A stretch of DNA of 64,000 bases, from contig NC_135055.1 of the NCBI RefSeq assembly GCF_051014685.1, forward strand, positions 2,976,001-3,040,000, read 5' to 3'. The translations under genes were made by a program, and so were the position numbers. Under the pieces are notes generated by a model. That model saw only the letters and a list, made by a program, of their open reading frames with translations, was not told the DNA's origin and searched no databases. Source of the DNA: Ptiloglossa arizonensis (lineage: Eukaryota > Arthropoda > Insecta > Hymenoptera > Colletidae). Below, in pieces: positions 306-64,000 of the stretch (its first letter is position 1; each line of letters starts with the position of its first letter).

Positions 306-1380
306 TTAACCCTTTCATTACGAAACATGGACATATACGTTTTCTAAAAATAGTCACTGATTTGCGAAAGGCGTGTATATACGTGCTACAAGAGTAGTCG
401 CCCACCTAGGACGTATACTAACGTCATCCAGTTTGCGATAATGTTCGATGGCCCTATATATACTTTCTTTAAGTACACAATTGCACACGCTGAGCGTGTA
501 TATACGTGCTACAAGAGTAGACACCCTCCTAAGACGTATATTAACGTCATCCAGTTCGCGATAATATACGATGGCCGTATGTATACGTACTTCGTGTATA
601 CAATTGCACACACTGAGCGTGTATATACGTGCTACAAGAGCACGTATAGACACCCTCCTAGGACGTATATTTACGTCATCCAGTTAGCGATAATATACGA
701 TGGCCGTATGTATACGTACTTTGAGTATACAATTGCACATACTGAGCGTGTATATACGTGCTACAGGAGTAGATACCCACCTAGGACGTATATTAACGTC
801 ATCCAGTTCGCGATAATATACAATGACCGTATATATTCGTACTTGGAGTACACAATTGCATACACTGAGCGCGTATATACGTGCTACAGAAGTGGACACC
901 CACCTAGGACGTATATTAATGTCATCCAGTTCGCGATAATATACGATGGCCGTATGTATACGTACTTTGAGTACACAAATGCATACACTGAGCGTGTATA
1001 TACGTGCTACAAGAATAGACACCTACCTAGGACGTATATTAACGTCATCCAGTTCGCGATAATATACGATGGCCGTATGTATACGTACTTTGAGTACACA
1101 AATGCATACACTGAGCGTGTATATACGTGCTACAAGAATAGACACCTACCTAGGACGTATATTAACGTCATCCAGTTCGCGATAATATACGATGGCCGTA
1201 TGTATACGTACTTTGAGTACACAAATGCATACACTGAGCGTGTATATACGTGCTACAAGAATAGACACCTACCTAGGACGTATATTAATGTCATCCAGTT
1301 CGCGATAATATACGATGGCCGTATGTATACGTACTTTGAGTACACAGTTGCGTACACAGAGCGTGTATATACGCTCGGGC
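306..1380. repeat. 123 bp minisatellite with palindromic TATA cores, about 8 copies
   Basis: The AGCGTGTATATACGTGC start recurs at 370, 493, 616, 745, 868, 991, 1114, 1237 and 1360. All steps are 123 bp except one of 129 bp, caused by a 6 bp insertion in the third unit. The last complete copies (991-1360) are nearly identical, so homogenisation is recent. Each unit holds three cores: GTGTATATACGTGC, GACGTATATTAACGTC (close to a perfect dyad) and GTATGTATACGTAC. Because 123 is a multiple of three, the plus strand stays open for 396 codons and the minus strand for about 100; neither looks like a protein. A TTAACCCTTT motif at 306-315 marks the left side. Confidence 0.95.
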
Positions 1381-2660
1381 ACAGTATTCGAGGAGCGTGG
1401 CTGTTCGAAACAGAAACTTGTCCATCACCCAGCACTATTACCCGAATTCGCTCCTCGTTCGACGAATTTCGCGGCTCGTGCGTGATCGTAGGCAGCGCAG
1501 AAGTCGGAGAGAGGAGAGAGGCGTCCGGTCAAAAAGCCACTCAGCCGTTCGATGTTTGCGCGAGCGTGAGCGCCCAACGAGCGAACGAGCGAGCGAGCGA
1601 GCGAGCGAGCGAATGCTTTAAGCCCGAGTAATCCGGCTTAAAGCTCGAGTTAACGTGCAGGTCCGTCGCGAAAGCCACGAGGGCCCGCGCTTAAAGAGAT
1701 TTCGAGTCGTTAGTCGAGTTACGAAAGGGGTACGCCGCGGAAACGAAGGAAGAGGAGGCAACGGAAAAAGGAAGCCGGAGGGATGGAGGGAGGTGGAGGG
1801 GTGCGCGCGAGAGGACGGCAGCTACGGGTGAGGAGAAGGGAGGAGGGAGTAGGAGGCAGGAAGAAGAATATCGACCTCACGAGGTACGTCCACCGTCGAA
1901 AACTCCTGTAATTAACGAACTTTTCGCCGGTTTTCCACTTCACGTCGTGCACCACGGGCTCCCCGAGTTCCCCCCACCCCCACCCCCCAACCAACCCCCA
2001 CCCGACGCTACACCCTTCAGAACCGGGTTTTGTTTGGCAAAGTGCAATTTTTCTAAACGATCAAAGTGCTCCAACCCTCTCCTCTCTCTCTCTTCGCTCG
2101 CCCCTCCCCCTCCCTTTCCCGTTCCCTACCCACGGATGAGGGAAGGGGTTGGAGGGAGGGGGAAGCGGGTCGTCTCTTTTCCCGGTTTCGCCCGCGGGCG
2201 ATGCCGGACCGTCTCCTCGTAAAAATTGCATCGCCATTGTTTGAAGAGGTCGGGACGAAGAAGCGGAAGAGAGGTAAGATCGTTTCCTTGGGACGGTGAC
2301 GGCGGTCGAGAAGCCAGCCGGTTGCCGGGGGAACGTCATTAGCGGCGACCGCGCAACCGTTTCGCGGCGAAACTTCGAAGCAATGAACCGCCACCGCCGC
2401 CGCGGCTTAATGAATCGAGCGTAATTGCTCAAGAGCTTGACATTTCGTCGCGAGCGAGTCCCGCTCTCTATGCACGCCTAATAATCCATCCCCCCCTTCC
2501 GAGTCGCACTGGTCCGTCACGATCGGGGACACCACTCGGGGAACGATAGCCACGCATAGTTTGGGGACTTTTAATTCGTTGAACAGAGGGAACAAGCGAG
2601 GTGTCACGGGTAAGAGGGATCACGGGTTTTGGTATGTTTCGAGGTTGACAAAGTTTCGGG
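1381..2660. other. CpG-rich, low-complexity stretch without a recognisable gene
   Basis: The plus strand is purine-rich around 1720-1870 and pyrimidine-rich around 1960-2130, with runs of CCCC and GGAGG. CpG is frequent. Six overlapping frames on both strands are open, but all translate to Pro, Ser or Arg-rich low-complexity sequence. It could be promoter-associated CpG-rich DNA; no transcript evidence is visible. Confidence 0.4.
1577..1613. repeat. (GCGA)n microsatellite
   Basis: An uninterrupted run of GAGC/GCGA tetranucleotides lies in a CpG-rich stretch. Confidence 0.9.
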
Positions 2661-2670
2661 ACACTGTGTG

Positions 2671-3285
2671 AGGAGTAAAGATACAGCTGGTAGAGACTGA
2701 TAGAACTCGTTGAAAGAATACGCAAGGTCAAACTTTTGGTTAAGAAAGATGTATGTGTTTGTTTTGTCAAAGTAGAGAGTAGCTTACAAAGGGCGTGTAT
2801 ATACGGTTTTCAAGTGATTATATACGAGGAACGTAGATACACGTCCGCCAAGTGTACGATTATGTTGAAGAACGTATATACACGTGCGCCAGGTGCATGA
2901 TTATGTTGAAGAACGTATATACACGTGCGCCAAGTGTACGATTATATCCAAGAACATATAGACGCGTGAGGAGTAAAGATACACTTGGGAGAGACTGATC
3001 GAACTCGTTGAAAGAATACGCAAGGTCAAACTTTTGGTTCAGAAAGATGTATGTGTATGTTTTGTCAAAGTAGAATGTAGCTTACAAAGGGCGCGTATAT
3101 ACGGCTTTCAAGTGATTATATACGAGGAACGTAGATACACGTCCGCGAAGTGTACGATTATGTTGAAGAACGTATATACACGTCCGCAAGGTGCACGATT
3201 ATGTTGAAAACCGTATATACACGTGCGCCAAGTGCACGATTATATCGAAGAACGTATATAGACGTCCGTCGAGTGTACGATTAAA
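2671..3285. repeat. 298 bp tandem duplication containing ~41 bp palindromic-core repeats
   Basis: The AGGAGTAAAGATAC start recurs at 2671 and 2969, an offset of 298 bp. Each copy has a non-repetitive first part of about 110 bp, then four to five units of about 41 bp. Those units are built on CGTATATACACGTGCGCCAA and end in GTGTACGATTATGTTGAAGA. The duplication therefore copied an existing minisatellite together with its flank. Confidence 0.9.
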
Positions 3286-3289
3286 GATA

Positions 3290-4555: not shown

Positions 4556-4560
4556 GGAAT

Positions 4561-6988: not shown

Positions 6989-7870
6989 GGTAAACCTTTG
7001 ATCACGAGGGACGTAAAATGTACACAGAGTTCTCTAAAATTCACGAGAAACGTATATATTTGCCTTCTAAAAGTGTAGAATTACGGAGAACGTGTATATA
7101 CGGCGTCGAAGAGAACTGAAATCGAATATATACGTCTTGAAAGTGCACAACCATGCACGTAGAGCGTATATGTACGTCTTGAAAGTGCACAACCATGCAC
7201 GTAGAGCGTAGATATACGTCTTGAAAGTGCACAACCATGCACGTAGAGCGTAGATATACGTCTTGAAAGTGCACAACCATGCACGTAGAGCGTATATGTA
7301 CGTCTTGAAAATGCACAACCATGCACGTAGAGCGTATATGTACGTCTTGAAAATGCACAACCATGCACGTGGAGCGTATATATACATCTTGAAAGTGCAC
7401 AACCATGCACATAGGGCGTATACATATGTCTTGAAAGTTCACATCATGCACGTAGAGCGTATATATACTTCCTGAAGTGCATAACCATGTACCTGAAGCG
7501 TATATATACGTCCTAAGGTGCAAAACCATGCACTCGAAGCGTATATATACGTCCTCAAGTGCATAAGCATGCACGTAAAGCGCATATATACGTCCTCAAG
7601 TGCATAAGCATGCACGTAAAGCGCATATATACGTCCTCAAGTGCATCAGCATGCACGTAAAGCGCATATATACGTCCCAAAAGTATATGATTATACGGAA
7701 TAGCGTACATTTACGCCCATGTATGTATATTCTATTTATTAAATTTATTTTTGCACCGTTTTCATTAGATAGTCTCGTCGAAATTCGAGCAACACTTGAA
7801 TATACTTGACCGTTTCGTTTCGCGCACCACTGGCGTTTTCAGCTACGAACGCAATGCAGTTGACGATTAA
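6989..7870. mobile_element. Candidate TTAA-bounded element carrying a 42 bp minisatellite
   Basis: A degenerate left end, TAAACCTTTGATCACG (about 6991), precedes the array. From about 7045 to 7450 a 42 bp unit recurs (starts at 7161, 7203, 7245 and onward) with core CGTATATGTACGTC and the spacer TTGAAAGTGCACAACCATGC. The units then drift to about 7690 with CGCATATATACGTC cores. The right side, 7805-7870, contains GTTTCGCGCACCACTGGCG, which matches the module seen near 40.7 and 54.2 kb, and closes at TTAA (7867-7870). Boundaries are inferred; the array itself is certain. The 42 bp period keeps a 177-codon minus frame open, and I reject that as a protein. Confidence 0.6.
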
Positions 7871-9748: not shown

Positions 9749-11095
9749 TTATCCCTTAGGTTGTTGTACGGCGTGTATGTACGGTCTAGGAAAATTGCCT
9801 TGCGTTCGCTTATGCCGGATATATACGGCTTGGAAAAGTAGCTTCTAATTTTCTTTCGTCGCATATATACGGCTTGGAAAAATAGCTTTTAATTTTCTTT
9901 CGTCGCATACATACGGCTTGGGAAAGTAGCTTCTAATTTTCTTTCGTCGGATATATACGGCTTGGAAAAGTAGCTTCTAATTTTCTTTCGTCGGATATAT
10001 AGGGCTTGGAAAAGTAGCTTCTAATTTCCTTTCGTCGCATATACACGGCTTGTAAAGTAGCTTCTAATTTTCTTTCGCCACATATATACGGCTTGTAAAG
10101 TAGCTTATAATTTCCTTTGTGGGATATATACGGCTTGGAAAAGTAGCTTCTAATTTTCTTTCGTCACATATATACGGCTTGGAGAAGTAGCTTCTAATTT
10201 TGTTTCTTCGCATATATACGGCTTGGAAAAGTTGCTTCTAATTTTCTTTCGTCGCATATATACAGCCTGAAAAAGTAACCTCGCTTGGTAACGTCGTATA
10301 TGTACGGAATTGAATTCGCGGTTATCATCTACGTATGCCTTACGTACACAATTATAGTTAAGATGAGAATATTTTTTACCTGGGCAAGTTATAGTGAATA
10401 ATCTAGAATAAACAACGTTGAATAAAGATTGATAGTTTTACTAGTTCTTTTAGTTAAAGTGCAACCGATGGTTTAATTTCGTACGAAGAAAGGAGGGAGT
10501 TAAAACCAAAGTTATTTAAATAATCGTGCTTTATGTAATAATAATAGTAACGTTTTTGTTACACTGTATAAAAGAGGTGCGTGCCAAGAGTGGTGTAAAA
10601 GGCGAGGCTCAGCCTCGCCACCATTAAGCTTAAGCTATACATAGCACTGAATATGCAAAAGGTATAGGGAGAAGAAAATAAGAAAAAAATATACATAATA
10701 TTAGCCCTTTGATTATGGCGCGCTTACTACGTAAGGAATATTCCCATCCCTTGCGACGCAAATAATATTTCTTTGTAAGTTAAATATGTAATATGTTGTA
10801 AAAATTCATTTACACAGAATATAATATGTTATTTGAGCATATATGTATACCGTGCATCTGCATCTTGAAGTACGAATATATGCGCACTATGGATATGATA
10901 GTGCATCCAAAGAACGTATATATATGTTCTGTGTACACGATAATGCACCTGAAAAGCGTATATATCCGTTTTTCGTAAATGAATATCCACTTTTAGCAAT
11001 CGATTGCACATATCGATGTCGTATTATTCTACAATAAATAACTAACTCCTTTTAGAAGGCGTATACATACGCCCGCTGTGATCAAAGGGTTAATA
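9749..11095. mobile_element. Candidate element: 44 bp minisatellite plus core cluster, ending AAAGGGTTAA
   Basis: Between 9757 and about 10310 roughly twelve 44 bp units repeat. They consist of ATATATACGGCTTGGAAAAG followed by a spacer ending TTTTCTTTCGTC; successive cores at 9821 and 9865 show the period. After about 500 bp of AT-rich sequence, a looser set of cores (GCATATATGTATACC, CGTATATATATG, CGTATATATCCG, CGTATACATACG) lies at 10835-11065. The segment closes with CGCTGTGATCAAAGGGTTAA near 11076-11095, which matches the right-terminal motif of other candidate elements. The left limit (TTATCCCTTAGG, about 9750) is degenerate and uncertain. Confidence 0.5.
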
Positions 11096-12551: not shown

Positions 12552-13560
12552 ATAGACGCATATACACGCTCTTTGGATGTGATTGATCGGTCGCAGGCTG
12601 CATATATTCGCGCTCTGGATATGATTGGTGGTCAAAAGCCGCATATCTACGCCCTTTGGATATGATTGGCGGTCACAGGCCGTATATATTCGCTCTTTGG
12701 ATATGATCGGTGGTCGAAAGCCGCATTTATACGCCCTTTGGATATGATTGGCGGCCACAGGCCGTATATATTCACTCTCTGGATATGATCGGTGGTCGAA
12801 AGTCGCATTTATACGCCCTTTGGATATGATTGGCGGCCACAGGCCGTATATATTCACTCTCTGGATATGATCGGTGGTCGAAAGTCGCATTTATACGCCC
12901 TTTGGATATGATCGGCGGCCGGAGGTCGCATATATTCGTTCTTTGGATATGATCGGCGGTTTAGGGCCGCATTTATACGCCCACTGGATATGATCGGCGG
13001 TCACAGGCCGCATATATTTGCTCTCTGGATATGATCGGTGGTCAAAAGCCGCATTTATACGCCCTTTGGATATGATCGGCGGTCGAAAGCAGCATATATA
13101 CGCCCTTTGGATATGATCGGCGGTCACAGGCCGCATATATTTGCTCTCTGGATAAGATCGGTGGTCAAAAGCTGCATTTATATGCCCTTTGGATATGATC
13201 GGCGGTCGGAGGTCGCATATATACGTTCTTTGGATATGATCGGCGGTCTAGGGCCGCATTTATACGCCCTTTGAATATGATCGGCGGTCACAGGCCGCAT
13301 ATATTTTCTCTCTGGATATGATGGGTGGTCAAAAACCGCATGTATACGTCCTTTGGATATGATCGGTGGTCGAAGGCCGCATATATTCGTTCTTTGGATA
13401 TGATCGGCGGTCTAGGGCCGCATTTATACGCCCTTTGGATATGATCGGTGGTCGCAGGTTGCATATATTCGCTCTCTGGATATGATCGGTGGTCGAAGAC
13501 CGCACTTCTACGTCCTTTGGATGCGAGCGAGCGGTCGAAGGCCGTATATATATGTTCCAT
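12552..13560. repeat. 41 bp minisatellite with an 82 bp alternating dimer
   Basis: The GGATATGATCGG block recurs every 41 bp (for example 13027, 13068 and 13109). Two monomer types alternate over much of the array. One carries GCATTTATACGCCC with CACAGGCC; the other carries CATATATTCGCTCTCTGG with TCGAAAG. This makes an 82 bp higher-order unit, clearest at about 12660-12900 where it repeats almost unchanged. The TATA core is less symmetric here (GCATATATTCGC, GCATTTATACGC). Small open frames on both strands are repeat translations. Confidence 0.93.
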
Positions 13561-16290: not shown

Positions 16291-16435
16291 CGATCCTAAA
16301 AGTAGACCGTCGAAGAACGTATATATTTGCCATGATTTACCTTCACACGTATATATACGGCCGCGAGAAGTACACAATGATTTACGTTAGTCGTATATAT
16401 ACGGCCACTGAGAGTAGAGGGCGTGTATGTACTCT
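16291..16435. repeat. Short cluster of palindromic TATA cores
   Basis: Four cores occur in 140 bp: ACGTATATATTTGCC, ACGTATATATACGGCC, CGTATATATACGGCC and GCGTGTATGTACTC. Two lie in a loose repeat of about 45 bp containing a shared AATGATTTACG or GAGAAGTA spacer. This is a short or decayed member of the array family. Confidence 0.7.
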
Positions 16436-17176: not shown

Positions 17177-17640
17177 ATTTTTATCTGGATAGGGTTATGC
17201 TTAACGTATTGGAATCTACCAATAAGTGTATACTAAGTGCGGGACATACTTCTTAACGTGAACGGTTATTCACGACAGGCGTGTATATACGTACTCTTAA
17301 AGTAAACGGTTATTTGCGACATACGTGTATATACGTACTCTTAAAGTAAACGGTTATTTACGACAGGCGTGTATATACGTACTCTTACAATAAACGGTTA
17401 TTTATGACAGGCGTGTATATACGTACTCTTAAAATAAACGGTTAGTTAATTAGGTACTGTATCTGCAAGCTATTTTTTAGTTTCGATGATGTATTTTTAT
17501 CTCGATAGGGTCGTGCTTAACGTACAAATGAAGGCTACCAGTAAGTGTATACTAAGTGTAGTACATACTTCTTAACGTAAACGGTTATTTACGACATGCG
17601 TGTATATACGTACTCTTAAAATAAACGGTTAGTTAATTAG
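17177..17640. repeat. 316 bp duplication containing a 44 bp minisatellite
   Basis: ATTTTTATCT plus following sequence recurs at 17177 and 17493, an offset of 316 bp. In the first copy the 44 bp unit is repeated four times, with GTGTATATACGTACTCTTAA starts at 17281, 17325, 17369 and 17413 and the spacer AAACGGTTATTTACGACA. In the second copy only one such unit is present. The array therefore expanded or contracted after the duplication. Confidence 0.9.
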
Positions 17641-20344: not shown

Positions 20345-20480
20345 GTCGCATATATACCATCTTTTACAACTAGACGCGAATATATACGTTCTACATGTTG
20401 CGGTGAAATATATCTAAAGAACGCATATATACGTTTGCGCGTATATATGCCTTTAACGATGCACGAGTGTATACATTTGC
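20345..20480. repeat. Short cluster of palindromic TATA cores
   Basis: Successive cores read CGCATATATACC, GCGAATATATACGTTC, ACGCATATATACG, GCGCGTATATATGCC and GTGTATACATTTGCC. Spacing is irregular (30-50 bp), so this is a degenerate array. Confidence 0.6.
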
Positions 20481-22430: not shown

Positions 22431-23660
22431 TTTCATCTCTCATTCCCTTAGATCAGTACTTCCTCCCTTCTGAGTAACTTTCAATACTTTGTCTTCTCAG
22501 CCCTCGTCTACTTTTCTCGATCCCTTAGGCCCCCGGTCTTTCATCATTCTGTACTTACTTAATCAGTCTCAGTCTTTTATACTCTCATCCTTTTCTTCCT
22601 TGTTCAGTAACTCTCAGTTTCGTTCATTTAATAATTCTCGATCCTTGGTACCCTCAGTATCAGAATTTGATAGCAACTTCGAGTCACTCAGTTTTTCAAA
22701 GTCTCGATCATACTCTCAAATTATCTAGTCTCAGTCCTCAGTCCTTCAACTTCACCATCTCCCATTCTTCCAGACCGAGTGTGTTACCTGCAGTCTCTCA
22801 GCTTTGGCGTCTTGCTCTCAGTCTCAATCTTTTATACTCTCATCCTTTTCTTCCTTGTTCAGTCACTCTCAGTTTCGTTCATTTAATAATTCTCGATCCT
22901 TGGTACCCTCAGTATCAGAATTTGACAGCACCTTCGAGTCACTCAGTTTTTCAAAGTCTCGATCTCACTCTCAAATTATCTAGTCTCAGTCCTCAGTCCT
23001 TCAACTTCACCATCTCCCATTCTTCCAGACCGAGTGTGTTACCTGCAGTCTCTCAGCTTTGGCGTCTTGCTCTCAGTCTCAATCTTTTATACTCTCATCC
23101 TTTTCTTCCTTGTTCAGTCACTCTCAGTTTCGTTCATTTAATAATTCTCGATCCTTGGTACCCTCAGTATCAGAATTTCACAGCACCTTCGAGTCACTCA
23201 GTTTTTCAAAGTCTCGATCACACTCTCAAATTATCTAGTCTCAGTCCTCAGTCCTCCAACTTCACCATCTCCCATTCTTCCAGACCGAGTGTGTTACTTG
23301 CAGTCTCTCAGCTTTTCAGCTTTGGCGTCTTACTCCCAGTCTCAGCGTTTCACTCTCTGTCTATCAGTGCTCCGTCACTCAGACTCTCGGTCTCTCTCAG
23401 TGTGTCATTGCATTGTTCCGCAACATTCAGCCCAATCAATCACTTTGCGTCTCTCTTTTCTCCTATCAACTCTCAGTCGCTTTCCCCGCCTCGTCACCTT
23501 TCTGCTCCATCATTTTTTCCCTTAACCCCCGCTGTGCATCCACCCCTCCGCCTATCTCTAACGCACTATACCCCTCGCCACTTCTTCCTTTTCAATTTTC
23601 TCCTCCGCTCTTCTCCGACCCCCCTCCCAACCTCATCCTCGCGTTCGCTCTTTCCCCGAT
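22431..23660. repeat. Polypyrimidine tract with three 255 bp tandem copies
   Basis: GAGTCACTCAGTTTTTCAAA recurs at 22681, 22936 and 23191, exactly 255 bp apart. The copies cover about 22565-23329 and differ by few substitutions. The whole tract is strongly C/T-biased on the plus strand and peppered with CTCAGT and TCTCAG motifs. Because 255 is divisible by three, a 331-codon plus-strand frame (22667-23662) stays open. Its translation is a Ser/Leu/Phe repeat with no domain, so I call it repeat rather than gene. Confidence 0.85.
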
Positions 23661-32161: not shown

Positions 32162-32199
<38 letters not shown>

Positions 32200-33185: not shown

Positions 33186-33325
33186 AGACGTATATACACG
33201 GCTTCAGGTGACTATTCACACGAGACGTATATATACGGCCAACGAGAGAAGACGGTTATTTACGAAGACCGTACATATATGGTCTCCAATATTGTACGGT
33301 TATTTACGAAGGGCGTATATATACG
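33186..33325. repeat. Short cluster of palindromic TATA cores
   Basis: Cores GACGTATATACACGGC, GACGTATATATACGGCC, CCGTACATATATGG and GGGCGTATATATACGTTTGG recur at about 45 bp spacing, with GGTTATTTACGAAG spacers in the last two. Confidence 0.8.
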
Positions 33326-33329
33326 TTTG

Positions 33330-40293: not shown

Positions 40294-40721
40294 GCCCTGA
40301 GAAAGTAACTGCTCATATATGATAGACGTATATACACTTCTTCTAAAAGTGATGTAATTTGACAAGAATGTATATACGTCTTTCGTGCTACACTATATGA
40401 TATCGAAGAGCGTATATATACGTTCTTCACACTGTATGATCATATCGTAAGTGCTATTACGTAAATATGTAAAATAATTTCCACTTATTCGGGGTTACTG
40501 TGTATTATATTCCTTTACTATATTTATTTTTGTGATGTACTAGATGTACAAGCTTTTGCGAACGGAAATGTATAAAAAAAAAAAACAGGTACTTGTGTCG
40601 TAAACGTTTCTTTCATCACAAATAGTAAAAATATTCCGTAACCGGGAGTGGAATAGTAATTGTCTCGTTCCGTACACCATTAGCGTTTTTAGTTTCAAGC
40701 ACGCTGTAGACAAAGGGCTAA
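40262..40721. mobile_element. Core cluster followed by the shared right-terminal module
   Basis: An (AT)n tract (40262-40287) precedes cores GACGTATATACACTTC, ATGTATATACGTC and GAGCGTATATATACGTTC (to about 40430). The module at about 40635-40721 reads TTCCGTAACCGGGAGTGGAA, then TGTCTCGTTCCGTACACC, then AGTTTCAAGCACGCTGTAG, and ends CAAAGGGCTAA. The same order of blocks occurs at 54.2 and 58.1 kb. The left boundary is not identified. Confidence 0.6.
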
Positions 40722-41328: not shown

Positions 41329-42300
41329 TTAACCCTTTGGATACGTACCGCGTATATATGCGGCATAAAAACTCACCGTATATCTGCGTCATGAAAAAGT
41401 AACCGTATATCCACGTTATGACAAAGTAACCGTATATCTGCGCCATGAAGAAGTAATCGTACACCCACGTTATGACAAAGTAATCGTATATCTGCGTCAT
41501 GAAGAAGTAATCGTACATCCACGTTATGACAAAGTAATCGTATATCTGCGTCATGAAGAAGTAATCGTATATCCACGTTATGACAAAGTAACCGTATATC
41601 TGCGTCATGAAGAAGTAATCGTATATTCACGTTATGACAAAGTAACCGTATATCTGCGTCATAAAAAAGTAACCGTATATCTGCATCATGAAAAAGTAAC
41701 GGTATATCTACGTTATGACAAAGTAACCGTATATCTGCGTCATGAAGAAGTAATCGTATATCCACGTTATGACAAAGTAATCGTATATCTGCGTCATAAA
41801 AAAGTAACCGTATATCTGCATCATGAAAAAGGAACGGTATATCTACGTTATGACAAAGTAACCGTATATCTGCGTCATGAAGAAGTAATCGTATATCTAC
41901 GTTATGACAAAGTAACCGTATATCTGCGTCATGAAGAAGTAACCGTATATCCACGTTATAAAAAAGTAACCGTATATCTGCGTCATAGAAAAGTAACCGT
42001 ATATCTGCATCATGAAAAAGTAACGGTATATCTACGTTATGACAAAGTAACCGTATATCTGCCCCATGAAGAAGTAACCGTATATCCACGTTATGACAAA
42101 GTAACCGTTTATCAGCGTCATGAAGAAGTAACCGTATATCCACGTTATGACAAAGTAACCGTATATCTGCGTCATGAAGAAGTAACCGTATATCCACGTT
42201 ATGACAAAGTAACCGTATATCTGCGTCATGAAAAAGTAACCGTATATATACGATAGGAGAAAGTAGACAATTATTCCTTGACACCGTTTATATACGGTCT
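41329..42300. repeat. 27/54 bp minisatellite starting at TTAACCCTTT
   Basis: TTAACCCTTTGGATACG (41329) leads directly into GCGTATATATGCGG and then about 34 subunits of 27 bp. Two types alternate: GTAACCGTATATCTGCGTCA plus TGAAGAA, and GTAATCGTATATCCACGTTA plus TGACAAA, giving a 54 bp dimer. A longer block containing CTGCATCATGAAAAAG and GGTATATCTACG variants recurs near 41690, 41820 and 42000, so there is a third level of order. The array closes with ACCGTATATATACGATAGG and CCGTTTATATACGGTC. A 303-codon minus frame is simply this repeat. Confidence 0.95.
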
Positions 42301-43683: not shown

Positions 43684-43935
43684 TCCGATATATACGGCCG
43701 TCGTGTATTAACGTTTACCTTCAAAACCGAATATATACGGCTGGCGTACATTAATGTTTACTTTGGAAACCGAATATATACGGCCGCCGTACATTATCGT
43801 TTACCTTCAAAACCGAATATATACGGCCGGCGTACATTAAAGTCATCCTTGATAGTCGAATACATACGGCTGTCGCACATGAACAACTATTTCCAAGCGC
43901 ATATATACGGCCTTAACACATAAACGTCCATTCCA
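43684..43935. repeat. ~43 bp minisatellite with ATATATACGGCCG cores
   Basis: About six units of 42-43 bp have core CGAATATATACGGCCG and spacer CGTACATTAACGTTTACCTT. The last units degrade (CGAATACATACGGC, GCGCATATATACGGCC). Confidence 0.9.
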
Positions 43936-44726: not shown

Positions 44727-45656
44727 ATGGCTTGTTCTTCTCTCGATTCTGGGTAAGTATTTATTAATGACTTTGCACTTTCTTTGGGCAAAGAAAAATC
44801 AGAATGTATCTGTATGTCTAGAAGTGAAGACATATTTCTTTAGTGCGACATATTAAAGTTAAAAAGATAAAAAAGAATTCTATCTCAAATATACGATCTA
44901 CGTAAATCTTAATCGACAATTCACAACCGTGTACGTACGGCGTTAGTAAGTAAAATACTACTTTCAAAGCCGTATATATACGACTCTAGGAAATGAGAAG
45001 ATACTTCTCCATGTTGGGTATATACGATATAGACAGTCATGGCTTGTTCTTCTCTCGATCCTGGGTAAGTATTTATTAATGACTTTGCACTTTCTTTGGG
45101 CAAAGAAAAATCAGAATGTATCTGTATGTCTAGAAGTGAAGACATGTTTCTTTAATGCGACATATTAAAGTTAAAAAGATAAAATAGAATTCTATCTCAA
45201 GTATATGATCTACGTAAATCATAGAAGACAATTCACGACCGTGTACGTACGGCGTTAGTAAGTGAAAGACTACTTTCAAAGCCGTATATATACGACTCTA
45301 GCAAATGAGAAGATACTTCTCCATCTTGGGTATATACGATATTGACAGTCATGGCGTGTTCTTCTCTCGATCCTGGGTAAGTATTTATTAATGACTTTGC
45401 ACTTTCTTTGGGCAAAGAAAAATCAGAATGTATCTGTATGTCTAGAAGTGAAGACGTGTTTCTTTAATGCGACATATTAAAGTTAAAAAGATAAAAAAGA
45501 ATTCTATCTCAAGTATACGATCTACGTAAATCATAGAAGACAATTCACGACCGTGTACGTACGGCGTTAGTAAGTAAAGGACTACTTCCAAAGACGTATA
45601 TATACGACTCTAGAAAATGAGAAGATACTTGTTGGGTATATACGATATAGACAGTC
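44727..45656. repeat. 312 bp tandem triplication
   Basis: ATGGCTTGTTCTTCTCTCGA-type starts lie at 44727, 45039 and 45351; the third copy ends near 45656 and is 306 bp after a 6 bp loss. Each copy contains GTGTACGTACGGCG, GCCGTATATATACGACTC and GGGTATATACGATAT cores. Small minus frames of 60-74 codons recur in each copy and are not supported as genes. Confidence 0.95.
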
Positions 45657-46490
45657 ATGGATTAATTTCTTAATAGTCGGTAATGTGATATCGTTTCAGT
45701 AATATCGAAACAAAAGAAAGACGTTCGTGTCGGTCTGTAAGCCACCGAACAAAAAAATGCGATTTAATAAAAGAGAAACGTTCAAGGAATACTGTTACGC
45801 CGACCGTCAAGTTTATTCCTTTGTTTCGCCATGACGATAAACTTCAATTCGACGGGAATCTCACGACCCTGCTTGCCGGGGAACCATCGATTGAGGTGTT
45901 CTTAAACGAACACAGAGTCTGGTTAATTATAAAGTTAAATTAAATATTGATATGCAAGGATTCAACTTCCTCCGCGAAATAGGTTGTGTCCCGTGGAATT
46001 TTGCACGAGCTTCTCAGATATGCGATCACTGATTACCGCCGCATTTGTAAACAGAGAATATTTAAATGAAGCGGGGAACTTCTCGAGTAATTAGAAAGAA
46101 AGTTACAGTATAATAACTACTGGAATTCCGTCGCTTCTGTAAACATTATTCAACACCGAATTAGGACGTAACTTCGGCGGTCAATTTAAATTTTAATACG
46201 CTTCGATCACTTGAACACCGATGGATTCTATTGGAAATCACACGTAAAAGACGAATGTGCGAGTTCTCACTCAGCGTCACCATGATTTATAGGTAGTCGA
46301 TTAATTTTAATTCGTTTCTATGTTAACGATTTTATGCACCGAGTAAATAATTTCAGAGGCCTGTTATCTCTCGAAATAATTTTGCAAAATTATGTACTCT
46401 TCAAATCTAAATCAGTACTAAAGTAGAAACACACAGAAATTGGAAGCCATGCTTTAAATCAATCTCTTAATACTTGCAATAGTTAAACGT
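45657..46490. other. AT-rich spacer, no gene seen
   Basis: Unique AT-rich sequence with no open frame of note. Confidence 0.5.
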
Positions 46491-46502
46491 TTAGCTGCAA
46501 AT

Positions 46503-46640
46503 ACCGTATATGTACGGTAAGGTACAGTAGTCTTACTTACTAATGTCAAACCGTATATATACGGTTTCCAATTGCCGACTATCATTTATGCCGCCTGTGC
46601 GGATATATACGGTTTCCAATTGTCGACTATCATTTATGCA
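46503..46640. repeat. Short repeat with a 20 bp perfect palindrome
   Basis: ACCGTATATGTACGGT, then AAACCGTATATATACGGTTT (46548-46567, a perfect 20 bp palindrome), then GGATATATACGG. The last two are each followed by the same TTCCAATTGCCGACTATCAT spacer. It is a two- to three-unit member of the family. Confidence 0.85.
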
Positions 46641-47820: not shown

Positions 47821-47905
47821 TCACCCTTTGTCTACAAGGGCGTATATATACGTCCTCTTAAAGAATAGTCTTGAATGAAAGACGTATGTATACGCCCAAT
47901 TCTAC
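47821..47905. repeat. Two palindromic cores next to a CACCCTTTGTCTAC end
   Basis: CACCCTTTGTCTACAAGGGC (47823-47842) runs straight into GGGCGTATATATACGTCC, and GACGTATGTATACGCCC follows. The first 14 bases match the complement of the right-terminal motif at 40.71 kb (GTAGACAAAGGG), so this may be an inverted or short element. Confidence 0.6.
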
Positions 47906-48849: not shown

Positions 48850-49803
48850 TCAGTAAAGTGGGGGTAGGTGGCCTCGAGCGGCCAAAACCTTACACCGTGA
48901 CCGGGGAGTGGGAGTAGGCGGTCTCGAGTGGCCCTAACCTTTCACCGTGACCGCGGAGTGGGGGTAGGCGCCCTCTAGCGGTCGAAACCTTTGATTCTGA
49001 CCGCGGAGTGGGTGTTAGCGGCCTCTAGCGGCCGATACCTTGTGCCGTGACCACGGAGTGGGGGTGAGCGGCCTCTAACAGCCGATATCTTGCGCCGTGA
49101 CCTTGAAGTGGGTGTTAGCGGCCTCTAGCGGCCGAAAAATTTCACCTTGACCGCGGAGTGGGTGTTAGCGGCCTCTAGCGGCCGATACCTTGTGCCGTGA
49201 CCACGGAGTGGGGGTGAGCGGCCTCTAACAGCCGATACCTTGCGCCGTGACCGCGGAGTGGGGGTTAAGCGGCCTCTAGCGGCCGAAACCTTTCACCTTG
49301 ACCGCGGAGTGGGTGTTAGCGGCCTCTAGCGGCCGATACCTTGCGCCGTGACCACGGAGTGGGGGTGAGCGGCCTCTAACGGCCGATATCTTGCGCCGTG
49401 ACCTTGGAGTGGGGGTTAAGCGGCCTCTAGCGGCCGAAACCTTTCACCTTGACCGCGGAGTGGGTGTTAGCGGCCTCTAGCGGCCGATACCTTGCGCCGT
49501 GACCACGGAGTGGGGGTGAGCGGCCTCTAACGGCCGATATCTTGCGCCGTGACCTTGGAGTGGGGGTTAAGCGGCCTCTAGCGGCCGAAACCTTTCACCT
49601 TGACCGCGGAGTGGGTGTTAGCGGCCTCTAGCGGCCGATACCTTGCGCCGTGACCACGGGGTGGGGGTGAGCGGCCTCTAACGGCCGATACCTTGCGCCG
49701 TGACCTTGGAGTGGGGGTTAAGCGGCCTCTAGCGGCCGAAACCTTTCACCTTGACCGCGGAGTGGGGGTAAGCGGCCTCCAGCGGCCGATACCTTGCGCC
49801 GTG
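48850..49803. repeat. GC-rich 50 bp satellite organised in 151 bp trimers
   Basis: About 19 monomers of 50 bp follow one another. Each has a GACCNNGGAGTGGG start, a GCGGCCTCTAGCGGCCG-type inverted motif and a CCTTGCGCCGT or CCTTTCACC end. From about 49297 the monomers repeat as a three-member higher-order unit of 151 bp: the CTTGACCGCGGAG start recurs at 49297, 49448, 49599 and 49750. Earlier monomers (48850-49290) are less regular. The array has no CGTATATATACG and is far richer in GC than any other array here. On the minus strand it lies inside the intron just downstream of the Mxd exon donor. Open frames running through it are translation of repeat. Confidence 0.95.
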
Positions 49804-49861
49804 ACTGCAATCGCGAACAAGCAGCGACACACAAGTAGACGACAATCATTGGTGTACTCAC

Positions 49862-51669: not shown

Positions 51670-51722
51670 AGGCACGTATATATACGGCCTTCTTAAAGAA
51701 CGTAGATATACGCTTTCCATAA
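51670..51722. repeat. Pair of palindromic TATA cores
   Basis: GCACGTATATATACGGCC and ACGTAGATATACGC are separated by TTCTTAAAGA. Confidence 0.65.
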
Positions 51723-52991: not shown

Positions 52992-53438
52992 CTGTTGGAG
53001 AGCGTATATAGACGTCATTCGTGAATACTTGCTTTCGGAGGTCGTATATATACGTCTTTTGTACATGATCTTGTTTTAGGGGGACGTATGTATACGAAAG
53101 ACTTCTAGAGTTCTCCTTTTAGAGGGTATATAAATATACTAAAGACGTATATATACGACCTCCAAATATAATTACTCAAGAACGACGTTTATACACGCCC
53201 TCCGACAGTAATATATATATATTACTGTTGGAGAGCGTATATAGACGTCCTTCGTGAATAATTGCTTTCAGAGGTCGTATATGTACGTCTTTTGTACATG
53301 ACCTTGTTTTCAGGGCGACGTATATATACGAAAAGGAGAGTTCTCCTTTTAGAGGGTATATAAATATATTAAAGACGTATATGTACGACCTCCAAATGCA
53401 ATTACTCACGAACGACGTTTATACACGCCCTCCGACAG

Positions 53439-53490
<52 letters not shown>

Positions 53491-53708
53491 CTGTTGGAGA
53501 GCGTATATAGACGTCCTTCGTGAATAATTGCTTTCAGAGATCGTATATGTACATCTTTTGTACATGACCTTGTTTTCAGGGGGACGTATATATACGAAAG
53601 ACTTCTAGAGTTCTCCGTTTAGAGAGTATATAAATATACTAAAGACGTATATATACGACCTCCAAATATAATTACTCGCGAACGACGTTTATACACGCCC
53701 TCCGACAG

Positions 53709-53760
<52 letters not shown>

Positions 53761-53979
53761 CTGTTGGAGAGCGTATATAGACGTCCTTTGTGAATAATTG
53801 CTTTCAGAGATCGTATATGTACATCTTTTGTACATGACCTTGTTTTTAGGGGGACGTATATACACGAAAGACTTCTAGAGTTCTCCTTTTAGAGGGTATA
53901 TAAATATACTAAAGACGTATATATACGACCTCCAAATGCAATTACTCACGAACGACGTTTATACACGCCCTCCGACAGT
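52959..53979. repeat. Four tandem ~220 bp inverted-repeat units joined by (AT)n
   Basis: Units lie at 52991-53209, 53224-53439, 53490-53709 and 53760-53979. Each starts ACTGTTGGAGAGCG and ends CGCCCTCCGACAGT. The first and last ~70 bp of each unit are near-perfect complements: GTATATAGACGTCCTTCGTG against CACGAACGACGTTTATACAC, and AGAGGTCGTATATGTACGTC against GACGTATATATACGACCTCC. The middle carries GACGTATATATACGAAAG and AGAGTTCTCC. Joints are AT runs of about 14, 50 and 50 bp, with (TA)n of about 30 bp before the first unit. Confidence 0.95.
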
Positions 53980-57286: not shown

Positions 57287-57870
57287 TTAATCCTTTTACT
57301 ATGAAAAGCGTATTTATACGGCCTCAAAGAGAATATACTTTCAAAAGGTGTATATACACGCTCAATAATGGTAAGGTCAGTTCCGAAAGGCGTATATATG
57401 CGCTCAATAGTAGTAATCGGTTACGAAAGGCGTATATATACGCCCAATAGTAGTAATCGGTTACGAAAGGCGCATATATGCGTCCAACAGTAGTAATCGG
57501 TTATGAAAGGCGTATATATACGCCCAATAGTAGTAATCAGTTACGAGAGGCGTATATATACGCCCAATAGTAGTAATCGGTTACGAAAGGCGCATATATG
57601 CGCCCAATAGTAGTAATCGGTTACGAAAGGCGTATATATGCGTCCAATAGTAGTAATCGGTTACGAAAGGCGTATATATGCGCCCAATAGAAGTAATCAG
57701 TTACGAGAGGCGTATATATACGCCCAATAGTAGTAATCGGTTACGAAAGGCGCATATATGCGCCCAATAGTAGTAATCGGTTACGAAAGCGCATATATGC
57801 GCCCAATAGTAGTAATCGGTTACAAAAGGCGTACATATGCAGCCAATAATAGTAATTGGTTACGAAATAG

Positions 57871-57922
<52 letters not shown>

Positions 57923-58179
57923 GTCCTTCACAGCGCGTTGTTTGTAAAAAAACATGGTAAGAAACGAGAGTCAAAATATTACGGTACCAGTGTATCGTTC
58001 CTTCACGTGCTGCATTTCGAAGCATATCCTACAAATATTGATTATTAGATTATCATTTACATAAAACCGTGGGTTGCGTAAGCGGTAGAAGGTTCCGTAA
58101 CCTCGAAATTGAATAGTAACTGTCTCGTTACGTTACCGTAAGCGATCTCGGTTCCAAGTACCCATAGTCAAATCGTTAA
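57287..58179. mobile_element. Candidate 893 bp TTAA-bounded element with a 40 bp palindrome minisatellite
   Basis: Left end TTAATCCTTTTACTATG (57287) resembles TTAACCCTTTCATTACG at 306. From 57300 to about 57860 runs a 40 bp unit: GGCGTATATATACGCC, a 16 bp perfect palindrome, plus the spacer CAATAGTAGTAATCGGTTAC. Several units instead carry GGCGCATATATGCGCC, also perfect. The array ends in a (TA)n run (57877-57921) leading into ACGTCC. The right module (58095-58179) contains TTCCGTAACCTCG, AACTGTCTCGTTACG and AGTCAAATCGTTAA, closing at TTAA 58176-58179. The array is certain; the element reading is inference. Confidence 0.65.
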
Positions 58180-59420: not shown

Positions 59421-59422
59421 TT

Positions 59423-60435
59423 TTAACCCTCTAGGCGCTTAGGACGTATGTAGTATATATGCACTCGCTACGAAACGTTCCTCTTATACCACGGATGTAT
59501 GTATATACTCGTCGCGAAACGTTTTCTTTTTATACCGCGGGCGTATATACACGCTCGACGCTTTGCGTGTGCCCTGTGGACGTATATATACGCTCGGCGC
59601 GAAACACTTTGTGTGTGCGCTGAGAACGTATATAGACGTTCGACGGAAAACACTTTCTGCGTGTTAAGGACGTATATATACGCTCGACGCGAAACACTTT
59701 GTGCGTGTTAAGGACGTTTATATACGCTTGCTCTGTGTGCCTAGGTGCGTGTATAGACGTTCGTTACGAAACGCTCTGTTTATATGAATTGGTATGTATA
59801 TACGACGTGTTAAGGACATATATATACGCTCGACGCGAAACACTTTGTGCCTGTTAAGGACGTATCTATACGCTCGACGCGAAACACTTTGCGCGTGTTA
59901 AGGACGTTTATATACGCTTGCTCGGTGTGCCTAGGTGCGTGTATAGACGTTCGTTACGAAACGCTCTGTTTATATGGATTGGTATGTATATACGACGTGT
60001 TAAGAACATATATATACGCTCGACGCGAAACACTTTGTGCCTGTTAAGGACGTATCTATACGCTCGACGCGAAACACTCTGCGCGTGTTAAGGACGTTTA
60101 TATACGCCTGCTCTGTGTATCTAGATGCGTGTATAGACGCTCGTTACGAAACGCTCTGTTTATATGGATTGGTATGTATATACGACGTGTTAAGGACATA
60201 TATATATACGCTCAACGCGAAACACTTTGCGCGTGTTAAGGACGTTTATATACGCTTGCTCTGTGTGCCTAGGTGCGTGTATAGACGTTCGTTACGAAAC
60301 GCTCTGTTTATATGGATTGGTATGTATATACGACGTGTTAAGGACGTTTATATACGCCTGCACTGTGTGTGTAGATGCGTGTATAGACGCTCGTTACAAA
60401 ACGCTCTGTTTATATGGATTGGTATGTATATACCT
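59423..60435. repeat. ~44 bp minisatellite in 190 bp higher-order units, left end TTAACCCT
   Basis: TTAACCCTCTAGGCGCTTAG (59423) precedes cores such as GGACGTATATATACGCTCG with spacer GCGAAACACTTTGTGCGTG. Four-monomer units recur from 59811, 60001 and 60191, 190 bp apart; the next start, 60339, is only 148 bp on, so one monomer was lost. Within each unit one monomer carries GTATAGACG, one GTATATACGACGTG and one GTTTATATACGC, each kept in order. Plus frames of up to 142 codons are repeat translations. Confidence 0.93.
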
Positions 60436-60624
60436 ACGACACGAAGCACTTACATATTTAGATAAACAGCATTCATTCGAAAATGTCTCAATGACAGTAA
60501 ACACACGAGCGTGTTTCCTTGAGAGCTTGCCAGTTGGAAGCCAGTTTCGCTGTAGCGAAATAATCAACACCCTGAGTAAATGTTTCAAAATGATCCTCGA
60601 GACTTTACGAAATTCTAACAATTC

Positions 60625-60892
60625 TTGACCCTTTCGCCAAAGGAAGGTACCGATCGCCGAGTTACCACGCTCGTGTATTTAACGATCATTGATACATTTT
60701 GAAACGAATAGTTCGTATCTCCATACACGAACGCTATACACCAGACGTATATAAACGTCCGTAGAGTAAGAAGAGCGTTTCACGACGAACGTACATATAC
60801 GACCGAAGTATAAAAAGATTTCATGGCGCGTATATACGGCCGCGACGCGCGTAGAGCGTTTCGTGGCGGCAAATGTATACGACAAGGGTCAA
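60625..60892. mobile_element. Compact 268 bp candidate element with TTGACCCTT ends and three cores
   Basis: The left end TTGACCCTTTCGCC (60625) and right end GACAAGGGTCAA (to 60892) are inverted over the outer nine bases. Between them lie GACGTATATAAACGTCC, AACGTACATATACGACC and GCGCGTATATACGGCCGC, plus repeated AAGAGCGTTTC and TAGAGCGTTTC spacers. TTGA and TCAA at the edges would be variants of a TTAA target. It is the smallest member that shows both ends and the cores. Confidence 0.55.
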
Positions 60893-63770
60893 CCACGTGC
60901 CACAATCGCGAGTTAAACAAAATTCCACGATTCGGGTTGGAAAAGTGCCCATCCACCGTGTAATTCTGACTTCTCCGTTATTTGTTCACGTTACGACATC
61001 GTAAACAGAGAATGAGGAAAACATTCCGATACAACCAGTGAAAGACAACCAGAGAGAACAGTCGCCACGGGTAACAAAGAGCGAACGTTACAGGGATAGG
61101 GACACGTGTCGTGAAATAGTTCAGGGTCGCAAACCGTGCCCCGAAATATTAAGAACGGATCGGGAACCTCGTGCAACGAAGCCTCTTCGGGTTAACGTCT
61201 TTCCGACACATTTGCAAATAATCTGGATGATGTGAGTTGGACAATATACTGGCTAGATCGAGCACCAAGCGAAGAGACTCGTCGGTACTGGATAAACGCT
61301 GCCGCGGGTCAGACGTAACCCCACGCAGAAACGGAATATTCATTACGCGATGCATCGCTCGCGGGTGCTCGCGAGCGCGCACGAACCTACCGTTCTCGTG
61401 GGCGTTCGTTTCTGGGTTATGCAGCCTGGTGCAATATGCATGTGCGTGTCCTCGTCGATACAGCGTGGAAAGCAAGGGGCTATGGGGCGCACATGACGCA
61501 CACGTGTGGCGTGGCGAAGAGACCCTTTTAAACAATGCCACGGCCGCGCGAAGATGGTGGACGATTGTCGTTGGTCGATGGTTCGATGTTCCTTGGTACG
61601 TCGATACGAAAAACGAGCGAACAAGGTCTGTTTTGGATTACTATTCGAAGACATCCACGGTGTCTCTAGGTTACCAAGGTGTGCACTGCTTCCACGAGGA
61701 ATCGTATATATTTCTTCGCGTAGATAAGGATTCATTAGTTGAGACAACTAGGATCTAATTATCTTATCTTGGATCTAATTAGGATCTGAAACGTGTCTTT
61801 GTTAATTGATACATCGTTGGGTTTAAACGATGCAGCTACACGATCCGATCAGAGTCAGTTGTCGAGGTGCAAGACAGATGATAGTTGCAGAGAGTTTGAT
61901 ACATTGGGGATTGATTTGTGATACGTAACATCGCAAATTGGGATTCTTGAGACACCTGTGCAGCAGCTTATCCATCTGTGTTCCGTCACGCGTTATTCGA
62001 ACTGTTAGGTGTCCTGCAATTCTCAGAGTTTCGGGACAACACACCCGGACTCTTCCACGGAAGAGGATTGGTTGGCACGGAACGACCAATACAAAGATAC
62101 AAATGTTAACGCAAGATTTCATTAAACCACTTGGTCTTTCTGTATCGTTCAGACCTGTACTAGACCTTGGTACAGTGATATCACCGATTTCGGATTCACA
62201 ACGAACAATTCGGAATCGGATTTGTTGAACGTAAGGATTTCTCGTTACGAGAATCCTCCACTGTTACACAATATGATATTCTCTTTTCGAGTAATCTACC
62301 CAGTCACTCCAAATTGAACGTTTCTGCTGAAACTCACCGCCGGACTGAATCCTCAGACATTTCCACGATCGGTGAATCCCCTGTTCAGCCATTGAACTCA
62401 CCGCCAAGGTGTACTAAAATCGAGCACTCGATAAAAATGCCTTAAACCGCGTCACCGAGAATCAGGGAAATTCGACTCGCCCGTCCCATTTGCTCAATCG
62501 ATCCTCCTCCGCTCGGTGCCTCCGAAGTCGATGGATTGATTGAAACGACCGCGTCGGTCGGAATGAAATTAACAACGCAGACGTGGGCCAACAATCCGTG
62601 AAACGGAACACGAGCGTTGAAAGGAGACTCTCTCTCTTCCACGGCGGAAATGGATTGCGGAGGAAGCGTACGTCTGCTCGATTTAAAGAAGTAATTTGCT
62701 ACGGTGAAATCAGGCTGGCCGGATCTACGGGGAGACTTTTTCAACGAGCGGGCATAAATTCTTCCGGCCTCTGTCCCCGGGGATTCGTTTTGGTGGTCCG
62801 TGGTCCGTTCCCTGGGGATATTTAATGTTCGGGAACGGGCGCTGCCGCTTAGCGACAATTGTGTTTAATTGCCAGGAAAATGCACCTCCCCCCCCCCCCT
62901 TCTCTCTTTCCCCGTTTTCCTTCGCTTCTCCGCGACGCGTTTATCGAGGCTAGGTCTGTGTCAAAGGTTGGATAATTCAGACGGTTGAGAAGGAGATGTC
63001 AGATCTAAGGTAGGAGAGCTTCCTTAATTTTCTGCGGCAGATTGGAGGATCCTGAGACGGATGGTCTTCCGAGACCTGGACGTTGGATTCGTTTCTTAGT
63101 ACGTCGAAAGTTTCTTGATGAGATTACGCTACGAGGTGTGGCAATTCGGATGAAACATTTGACGGGTACGACGGGGGTGTTGCTTCCAGAAAATTGATGC
63201 ATTGACGGAATCTAGGATTTCTAGCGCACTTGGAAAATTCGTGCATTGTCATCCGGTCTGATCTAATCCCTTGTAGGGATATCATTAACGACGTTGGGTG
63301 GTTCTGATTCTTGGAACGTATCTTAGAATATTTGTTCCTTTCTTTTTTCCTTGCGGTGTTGTGAGATTAATTTCTTCACAAAGAGTAACGATTTTTCCGC
63401 TTCTAACACTACGTCTGATGGTACCATCCACGCTACTTGAACTCTGTCAGTGACTGCATAATATAAAACCTCCGAGATACAGTAAGAAAACAAACGAAAC
63501 GCTATGGTTGAACTTCGAGACGAAATTACAATCCACGGAGAGAACACTTACCCCAAGACATTCCATACATATACATACATACGTATATATTCATACATAT
63601 TCAACCTGTCAAACCACTTGTATTATTCCAGTCTGTTACGTACAGTTATGTGTTACATTATATCTATTGTTAGACCAACATGACATCGGTCACTTCCATT
63701 GAACCAGTCTTACGTCTACCCTTCCGCTGTAATATACATATACACAACCACTGAAAATGGACAGTAAACA
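60893..63770. other. Spacer, no gene seen
   Basis: CpG-rich 61000-61560, then mixed. Overlapping frames at 61149-61758 and 62442-62858 run on both strands without domain features. A poly(C) of about 11 lies near 62888-62898, and CATACATATACATACATACG sequence near 63565-63600. Confidence 0.45.
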
Positions 63771-63774
63771 CAGG

Positions 63775-64000
63775 AGACGTATATATACGCACGTGGAACG
63801 TGTATGTACGCCCTCTCGGTACTCTCGTATATATACGAACAGTGGATCGTATATATACGCTCTCGCAAACAATGCGTGCATCGCACAGGAGTGTACTATA
63901 TACAGCCGTAACCCAGTACAGAATAATAACACGCCCAATGTGTATCGCGAGAATTTAGTTTTAAACATCCTGCGTGGCGAAAGGGTCACATCGACCAAGG
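63775..64000. repeat. Core cluster ending with GCGAAAGGGTCAC
   Basis: GACGTATATATACGCACG, ACGTGTATGTACGCCC, TCGTATATATACGA and TCGTATATATACGC lie within 80 bp. At about 63976 GGCGAAAGGGTCAC appears, whose complement matches the TTGACCCTTTCGCC left end at 60625. It is probably another small element, reaching near the window edge. Confidence 0.65.

Follow-up and report, generated by a model that had tools for sequence, protein, structure and literature searches.

What could lead many tandem arrays, differing in unit length and in spacer, to share a single short palindrome? The question arises from a 64-kb stretch of the genome of the bee Ptiloglossa arizonensis (C8:2976001-3040000; hereafter the window, in whose own numbering coordinates without a contig are given), where such arrays are built around the perfect 12-bp palindrome CGTATATATACG (hereafter the core). 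The evidence assembled below leaves us confident that what these arrays represent is the left ends of ancient DNA transposons of the piggyBac superfamily, most of them non-autonomous, whose transposase-site modules have been multiplied in tandem. The spacers between the cores share a common ancestry, the arrays end in tips of fixed geometry, they are linked to remnants of piggyBac transposase, and two elements possess both tips. The core is the constrained part of these arrays and the part that unites them, and by analogy with characterized piggyBac ends it is very probably a protein-binding site. The first-pass annotation of this DNA had proposed that the core is selected or bound by a protein, and this much stands, with the amendment that ancestry is shared beyond the core; its further statement that no named family matches is superseded, as the left end of piggyBac-superfamily transposons does match.

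At up to two mismatches the core has 265 matches in the window (264 non-overlapping sites), against a mean of 5.6 and a maximum of 16 in 100 dinucleotide shuffles of the same sequence, which bears out both the enrichment anticipated earlier and the earlier count. When core sites no more than 400 bp apart are joined, 28 clusters result, one of which (26269) is a single site, and the commonest spacings between cores are 40-44 bp. Tandem Repeats Finder (TRF), run blind to the core, recovers 27 merged arrays with a period of at least 15, and 17 of these carry two or more cores; together with the site search, it supports the previous description of cores lying in tandem arrays, whose units are 27 to 312 bp long and can hold several cores. 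The 49.9 kb of the window free of TRF arrays are likewise enriched, with 37 cores at no more than one mismatch where about 0.5 would be expected (15 exact and 22 one-mismatch copies versus 0.00 and 0.53 under an order-2 model), part of these 37 being edge units of arrays. The excess over chance in this portion amounts to 15, 21.5, 9.7 and 15.9 copies at zero, one, two and three mismatches and vanishes from four mismatches onwards, and among 180 palindromes of the same composition, the core included, no other one exceeds three copies there. A helical phasing of the core spacings was considered (R 0.25, p ~0.02 at 10.5 bp, uncorrected for shared ancestry) and is not counted as evidence. Several (TA)n microsatellites adjoin cores or lie within them, which would fit an expansion of the TATATATA centre (32161-32200, 53441-53488, 53711-53758 and 57867-57921).

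The first-pass annotation had further regarded the arrays as otherwise unrelated, with only the 12-bp dyad in common. Comparison of the spacers contradicts this on both counts. In a leave-one-out profile test against 200 shuffles, 22 of 23 spacer groups reach p <=0.05, and in a stricter form, with shuffling confined to the central part of each spacer, 17 of the 23 still pass (Fisher P 5e-21), as compared with 2 of 60 random 30-mers. These groups were picked by hand and cover 22 of the 28 clusters (59542 and 60746 forming one cluster); the clusters at 26269, 29823, 40327, 44971, 51675 and 63582 were left out as they offer no clean 25-36 nt spacer between two cores. The shared ancestral unit can be reconstructed as 42-44 bp long, approximately CGTATATATACG followed by TCCTnnAAAGTAnACAATCATTTACGAAGAG, and the positions flanking the core, mainly -7 to -2 and +2 and +3, retain about 0.15-0.5 bits across clusters, all read on the plus strand; the bases immediately 5' of the core tend to ACGAARRR. 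BLAST aligns the arrays at 34369 and 57387 directly, at 66-71% (best E 1e-24). On pairwise comparison, spacers from different arrays differ by 0.379 versus 0.384 when shuffled (117 pairs among 16 hand-delimited arrays), i.e., they have reached alignment saturation, and the arrays therefore look unrelated by eye. Genome-wide, 224 pairs of exact cores lie 36-46 bp apart, as compared to none in the control, and among the matches listed on contig 1 (C1) the unit length met most often is 44 bp, and the spacers, of the type CTCTGGAAAAGTGGTCGCTGAGGTACGAAGAG, look by eye to belong to this family.

In the hand-delimited arrays, the core is 0.60 times as diverse as the spacer when units of one array are compared, and 0.31 times (0.24 corrected) when different arrays are compared. 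These ratios are consistent with long-term constraint on the core but are not proof of it, because the within-array values scatter from 0.16 to 3.0.

A clue to the identity of the arrays comes from their edges. At 7 of the 56 cluster edges in the window, against 0.37 expected (Poisson P 1.4e-7), the tetranucleotide TTAA stands at a distance of exactly 18 bp beyond the last core, and no other offset has more than three. A profile of the whole tip recognises 12 of the 28 clusters at p <=0.01, with about 0.6 expected; its scores are inflated by bases common to the left flank of every unit, a concern that does not touch the 18-bp offset, which uses TTAA alone. Further, the side on which the tip lies agrees with the orientation of the spacers in 10 of the 11 clusters for which both are known. 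Across the genome, the pattern TTAACCYTTY-N{4,30}-core has 35 matches, in 33 of which the gap is exactly 12, and none in the reversed control. The arrays of C1 show the same arrangement of outermost core, 12 bases and then AAAGGGTTAA, with a tip present in 8 of the 10 array stretches fetched; all 18 tip-to-core distances below 60 are 12 or 55-56, i.e., 12 plus one unit, as measured at 12 tips, of which the tandem stretch L035 alone supplies five. Over 264 kb of C8, 4 of 13 such tip-to-core distances are exactly 12 (0.098 expected) and two are 56. The L035 stretch itself (C1:15449401-15450500) is made of tandem units of about 160-185 bp, five with a TTAAC(C/T)CTTT tip, which are perhaps whole short elements in tandem.

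The transposon to which such tips belong is identified by what lies behind them. One element, C8:3051133-3052379 (in L020), belongs to the array domain that includes the window; it has a right end TTAACCCTTT (L020:1133, plus strand) and a left end TTAATCCTTT (L020:2379, minus strand), and the array adjoins its left tip only. It contains a 75-aa open frame that scores 32.9 bits to PF13842 (zf-Tnp_2; cut-off 24), with four other families below cut-off, and that matches the piggyBat transposase chain 9c0f in the Protein Data Bank (E 6.5e-5); the closest of 12 fetched local transposases is that of locus L044 (54% over 41 aa). Used as a query for remnants of the piggyBac transposase C-terminal zinc domain, this frame gives 111 scored matches in the genome. 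Of the 35 genome-wide tips, 21 have such a remnant less than 1 kb away (at 38-692 bp), where 0.008 would be expected, the proximity being computed with 109 of the matches; in all 21 instances remnant and tip share a strand and the remnant lies inward of the tip. Similarly, 8 of 18 C1 array loci among the matches listed have a remnant within 1 kb (0.03 expected). A second complete element, of 594 bp (C1:15135351-15135944), also has both tips with an array at one end only. Both elements are bounded by TTAA at each end, and neither has a core, even at three mismatches, between its array and its right tip.

The transposase-bearing piggyBacs of the same genome provide a second line of connection. 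The TTAACCCTTT tip is present in 6 of 12 fetched loci with the catalytic DDD domain PF13843 (L044, L048 and L049-L052), and at 5 of the nine transposase-bearing ends inspected a strong palindrome, with 7-8 of 9 positions paired, has its centre 24.0-24.5 bp from the tip. Palindrome copies stand at bp 17, 61 and 105 in L044 and L048, each just after TACGAG, and at bp 17, 59, 102 and 144 in L047. Elsewhere in the assembly, piggyBac fragments are reported in open frames of 17,729 and 2,786 aa (C3:2334630-2334995 and C4:3567539-3568117), and C4:3.29-4.67 Mb has about ten equally scoring fragments, perhaps a piggyBac piece inside a satellite.

A number of observations weigh against this identification. 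At the level of single arrays, the orientation of that at 9772 conflicts with the side of its tip, the 42241 spacer group fails the leave-one-out test and six of the 23 groups fail the stricter one, and within some arrays the core is more variable than the spacer. On C1, two of the ten fetched stretches (L029 and L037) have no tip. In the window, 16 of the 28 clusters have no tip at p 0.01 by the tip profile, and their membership therefore depends on spacer homology or on the core alone; no right end can be paired with any window array, although a coreless TTAACCCTTT is present at 36790; and tblastn with 12 transposase frames (E 0.01) detects no transposase fragment. Because of the missing right ends and transposase fragments and the many clusters without a clear tip, the window elements are to be regarded as old or truncated. 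Moreover, blastn finds no flank common to different window arrays, and none is common to the window arrays and the C1 families, for which reason the window elements probably represent several older subfamilies. As for intact relatives, none of the 12 transposase hits fetched, out of 116, has a core beside its tip within 1.5 kb on each side; these loci have only a few two-mismatch core matches elsewhere, and the tips of L041-L043 were unrecognised. The central palindrome is absent at four of the nine ends (L044b, L045a, L047a and L049b), L044b and L049b being the opposite ends of L044a and L049a. Finally, the DDD domain has no tblastn match in the window or the surrounding 200 kb other than the C-terminal ones in L020. 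This absence is expected of a deletion derivative and therefore excludes autonomy rather than piggyBac membership.

Several of these points would suit an ordinary dispersed minisatellite family, descended from one 42-44 bp ancestor and spread by unequal exchange or extrachromosomal circles without any transposon. It would account for the common ancestry of the spacers, for the lack of common non-array flanks among the window loci and for the 16 clusters without a recognisable tip. Such a family should, however, consist of tandem units without transposon termini, and the TTAA offset, the tip gap and the remnants show otherwise: the TTAA/CCCTTT tips have a fixed geometry, the piggyBac remnants lie on their inner side and on the same strand in 21 of 21 cases, and two elements have both tips. 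We therefore hold this explanation to be very unlikely.

Still less probable is the earlier view that independent arrays were seeded at the site of a host protein, such as an insulator, a recombination hotspot or a PRDM9-like motif, and share the core alone. The constraint on the core that it invokes is real, given the excess outside arrays at zero to three mismatches and the fall of the diversity ratio from 0.60 to 0.31, but the spacers are homologous and oriented, and transposon tips and remnants are present; the host may still have made later use of core sites. No better founded is the proposal that the palindrome is kept as a hairpin or cruciform that drives amplification. The dyad is perfect, some cores have grown into (TA)n runs, and the flanking pair -2/+2 is complementary at 0.449 of sites versus 0.337 in shuffles (sd 0.047). 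Within the core, by contrast, the observed pairing of the halves is within one standard deviation of the shuffled expectation at all six pairs, so that there is no co-variation, and only 4 of 107 two-mismatch sites are palindromic; the two halves mutate independently, as expected of the site of a protein dimer and not of a hairpin. The last possibility, that the ends belong to another TTAA-inserting superfamily such as Kolobok, shares with the arrays the TTAA target site of that superfamily but has next to no credibility, as the remnants match the piggyBac zinc domain and adjoin 21 of the 35 tips, and the TTAACCCTTT tip recurs in half of the 12 PF13843 loci.

The piggyBac left end, in turn, suggests a course of events. 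Each left end comprises TTAA as the site of insertion, CCCTTT as the tip, and a module of about 44 bp that is repeated and is formed by a TACGAARRG-like motif, directly followed by the palindrome CGTATATATACG and then by a spacer of loose conservation. Judging from piggyBac and piggyBat, a transposase dimer probably docks on the palindrome via its two C-terminal zinc domains, and the preceding motif is probably contacted by the catalytic core of the transposase. Slippage or unequal exchange between modules could then have expanded a few ancestral copies into arrays of up to about thirty, giving rise to shortened units (27 and 32 bp) as well as higher-order ones (78, 119, 123, 190 and 270 bp). 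Selection for binding, acting while the elements were mobile, would have held the core constant across subfamilies as the spacers drifted to saturation, and after insertion most tips would have decayed, leaving apparently unrelated minisatellites with one common dyad. A more speculative extension, which we consider improbable though less so than the rival explanations above, is that more than passive slippage is involved: elements keeping the zinc domain without the catalytic domain, together with their multiplied sites, could constitute a two-part brake on piggyBac, i.e., a sponge of sites and possibly a product that only binds DNA.

The features recognised in the window are as follows (plus or minus strand in brackets where assigned).

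306-1373 (+): left-end array (TRF and site search) with a 123-bp higher-order unit (3 x ~41) and 21 cores; tip TTAACCCTTT at 306, separated by 12 bp from a decayed core with 3 mismatches and by 56 bp from the first good one
2794-3264 (+): two 41-bp sub-arrays in a 298-bp duplication, 9 cores; possible decayed left tip (p 0.001, TTAA not intact)
7051-7715 (+): 41/42-bp array, 17 cores; possible decayed left tip (p 0.0025, TTAA not intact)
9772-10306: 44-bp array, 13 cores, orientation uncertain; possible left tip, the last spacer-profile round giving the opposite orientation
10873-11093 (-): short cluster, 4 cores; intact tip TTAACCCTTT, outer end 11093, gap 12
12557-13554 (-): 41/82-bp array, 18 cores (<=2 mismatches), no tip found; one orientation analysis favoured the opposite strand
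16318-16403 (+): 3 cores with unique spacers (old cluster), no tip
17280-17610 (+): 44-bp array, 5 cores; 17267-17380 matches 33213-33326 at 71% (BLAST)
20347-20451: 4 cores, weak family match (spacer test p 0.02, stricter test p 0.49)
24623-25625 (+): two clusters with 46- and 32-bp units, 6 and 10 cores
27634-28322 (+): array of shortened, 31/32-bp units with 19 cores; TTAA exactly 18 bp beyond left core
29823-30171 (+): 246-bp duplication, 4 cores; TTAACATTTCG tip at left
31858-32331: 6 cores, one grown into the (TA)n run at 32161-32200; orientation uncertain
33189-33325 (+): 4 cores, 37- and 44-bp spacing
34333-35050 (+): 119-bp (3 x ~40) array, 13 cores; TTAA 18 bp outside left core
40327-40422: 2 cores 84 bp apart
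41329-42296 (+): array of shortened, 27/54-bp units with 28 cores; tip TTAACCCTTT at 41329 intact, gap 12
43685-43909 (-): 43-bp array, 6 cores; weak decayed right tip (p 0.007)
44971-45606: 312-bp x3 array, one good core per unit
46483-46611 (+): 3 cores at intervals of 47-48 bp; TTAA stands at gap 12, with CCCTTT decayed (tip profile p 0.02)
47841-47894 (+): 2 cores; left tip-like stretch with TTCA replacing TTAA
49857-50192 (-): coding exon of Mxd (MAX dimerization protein), residues 98-209, the only coding exon recognised in the window
51675-51712: 2 cores
53003-53967 (-): 230/270-bp higher-order array, 5 cores per unit, (AT)n runs
57287-57923 (+): 40-bp array, 14 cores; tip TTAATCCTTT at 57287, gap 12
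59542-60838 (-): 190-bp higher-order array and three outlying cores at 60746 that read plus, 22 cores in all
63582-63859: 5 cores, the last four 21-27 bp apart

The idea that all arrays share one orientation was rejected: 18 of the 28 clusters read as plus, which is inside the range of random flips (maximum 22), and the spacer profile had six reversed in its last round, the four earlier rounds not having fully settled. The window also contains two core-free arrays, at 22563-23315 (255 bp x3, pyrimidine-rich) and 37256-37738 (102 bp x4.7).

With regard to genomic setting, the exon in the list is identical to the P. arizonensis Mxd protein at 110 of 113 aligned residues, and further Mxd exons are at C8:2928368-2928505, 3055182-3055301 and 3222298-3222402, the recognised exons spanning 294 kb. 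Since exons lie within the window and on either side of it, the window arrays are intronic. A GC-rich minisatellite of 50/151 bp without a core (48857-49805), whose units contain TTAACCCCCACTCC, stops 51 bp before the window exon. In the 264 kb of C8 that were read, array clusters are concentrated in about 166 kb within Mxd (C8:2931634-3097226) and nearly absent on either side; 60 of the 61 exact cores belong to this domain, 45 of them to the window. The whole 998.7-Mb assembly has 716 exact cores, as compared to 23 for the reversed control, and the exact-core density of about 231 per Mb over the 264 kb compares with 50 among the matches listed for the first 15.8 Mb of C1. Were the doubtful brake on piggyBac to operate, this concentration in Mxd introns would represent a retained sink or a preferred landing zone and not a chance accumulation.

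More generally, recognising these arrays as piggyBac left ends turns puzzling "unrelated" minisatellites into readable fossils of transposon ends. It also shows how minisatellites can arise from a cut-and-paste transposon whose left end is, from the outset, a short tandem run of transposase sites. It can now be tested whether extra transposase sites help an element to move, soak up transposase or are neutral. For any set of arrays sharing a dyad, a general check would be to look for a target-site duplication at a fixed distance from the outermost copy. In the literature we recognised no description of piggyBac end repeats forming minisatellites, or of bee or colletid repeats, and do not claim that none is in print; the core string CGTATATATACG came up in two papers whose titles point to unrelated subjects, and in the main text of a 2025 review of transposon-derived satellites the term count for piggyBac is zero (PMC12628747).

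How, then, do these arrays compare with known systems? Two cores 26-48 bp apart occur nowhere in a viral sequence collection and at four places in a prokaryote collection, where the spacers look unrelated in the three inspected and the pairs are apparently convergent. Two of the prokaryote loci have intergenic tandem copies of the same 12-mer at steps of about 21 and 42 bp with unrelated spacers, namely a Prevotellaceae metagenome-assembled genome (MAG; L002, 5329-5425) and a Treponema MAG (L003, 4612-4790), the latter with an additional symmetric variant, CGTATGCATACG. The human hypervariable minisatellites of Jeffreys reportedly also have one short core across many arrays; that core is said to be GC-rich, and we know of no transposon ends associated with them. 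The oyster Helentrons Cg_HINE resemble the bee arrays in being dispersed short satellite-like arrays on non-autonomous transposons, but the passages concerned describe Helentrons with central repeats and not repeats of transposase sites at the end of a TTAA transposon (PMC7492417). The CENP-B-box-like motifs of nematodes are likewise short and conserved amid tandem repeats that have otherwise diverged strongly, and a link to transposase has been suggested; there the satellites are heterogeneous, the proposed role is in rearrangement, and the pertinent passages give no transposon end geometry (PMC3694981). The coral CMITEs are piggyBac-related miniature inverted-repeat transposable elements that form tandem arrays and whose internal region is more conserved than their terminal inverted repeats, although what is described as arrayed in corals is the whole CMITE and not an end module inside one element (PMC2872659).

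The piggyBacs of the same genome (L044/L048, L047, L046 and L049) share with the arrays CCC- or CTC-starting tips after TTAA, a left-end palindrome and, in L044/L048 and L047, repeats of 42-44 bp; they differ in the sequence of the palindrome, in having three or four copies of it and in their long open transposase frames. A further close comparison is with piggyBat of Myotis lucifugus. According to the passages describing its ends, the left end has a GCGGGA motif at bp 11-16, 55-60 and 99-104, with an imperfect palindrome three bp downstream of each; the transposase dimer binds the palindrome with two C-terminal domains and GCGGGA largely with its core domain, and at the right end there is no such palindrome (PMC11707139). 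As described there, piggyBat has three copies of a palindrome of different sequence, unlike the up to about thirty in the bee arrays, whose elements moreover keep only the C-terminus of the transposase and have no intact partner among the 12 of 116 hits fetched. The arrangement itself is nonetheless the same in bat and bee, i.e., a motif and a palindrome repeated with a 44-bp period at the left end only, and even the position of the first palindrome agrees, from about bp 19 in piggyBat (as derived from the stated third copy at 107-120; PMC11707139) and at bp 19-30 for the bee core.

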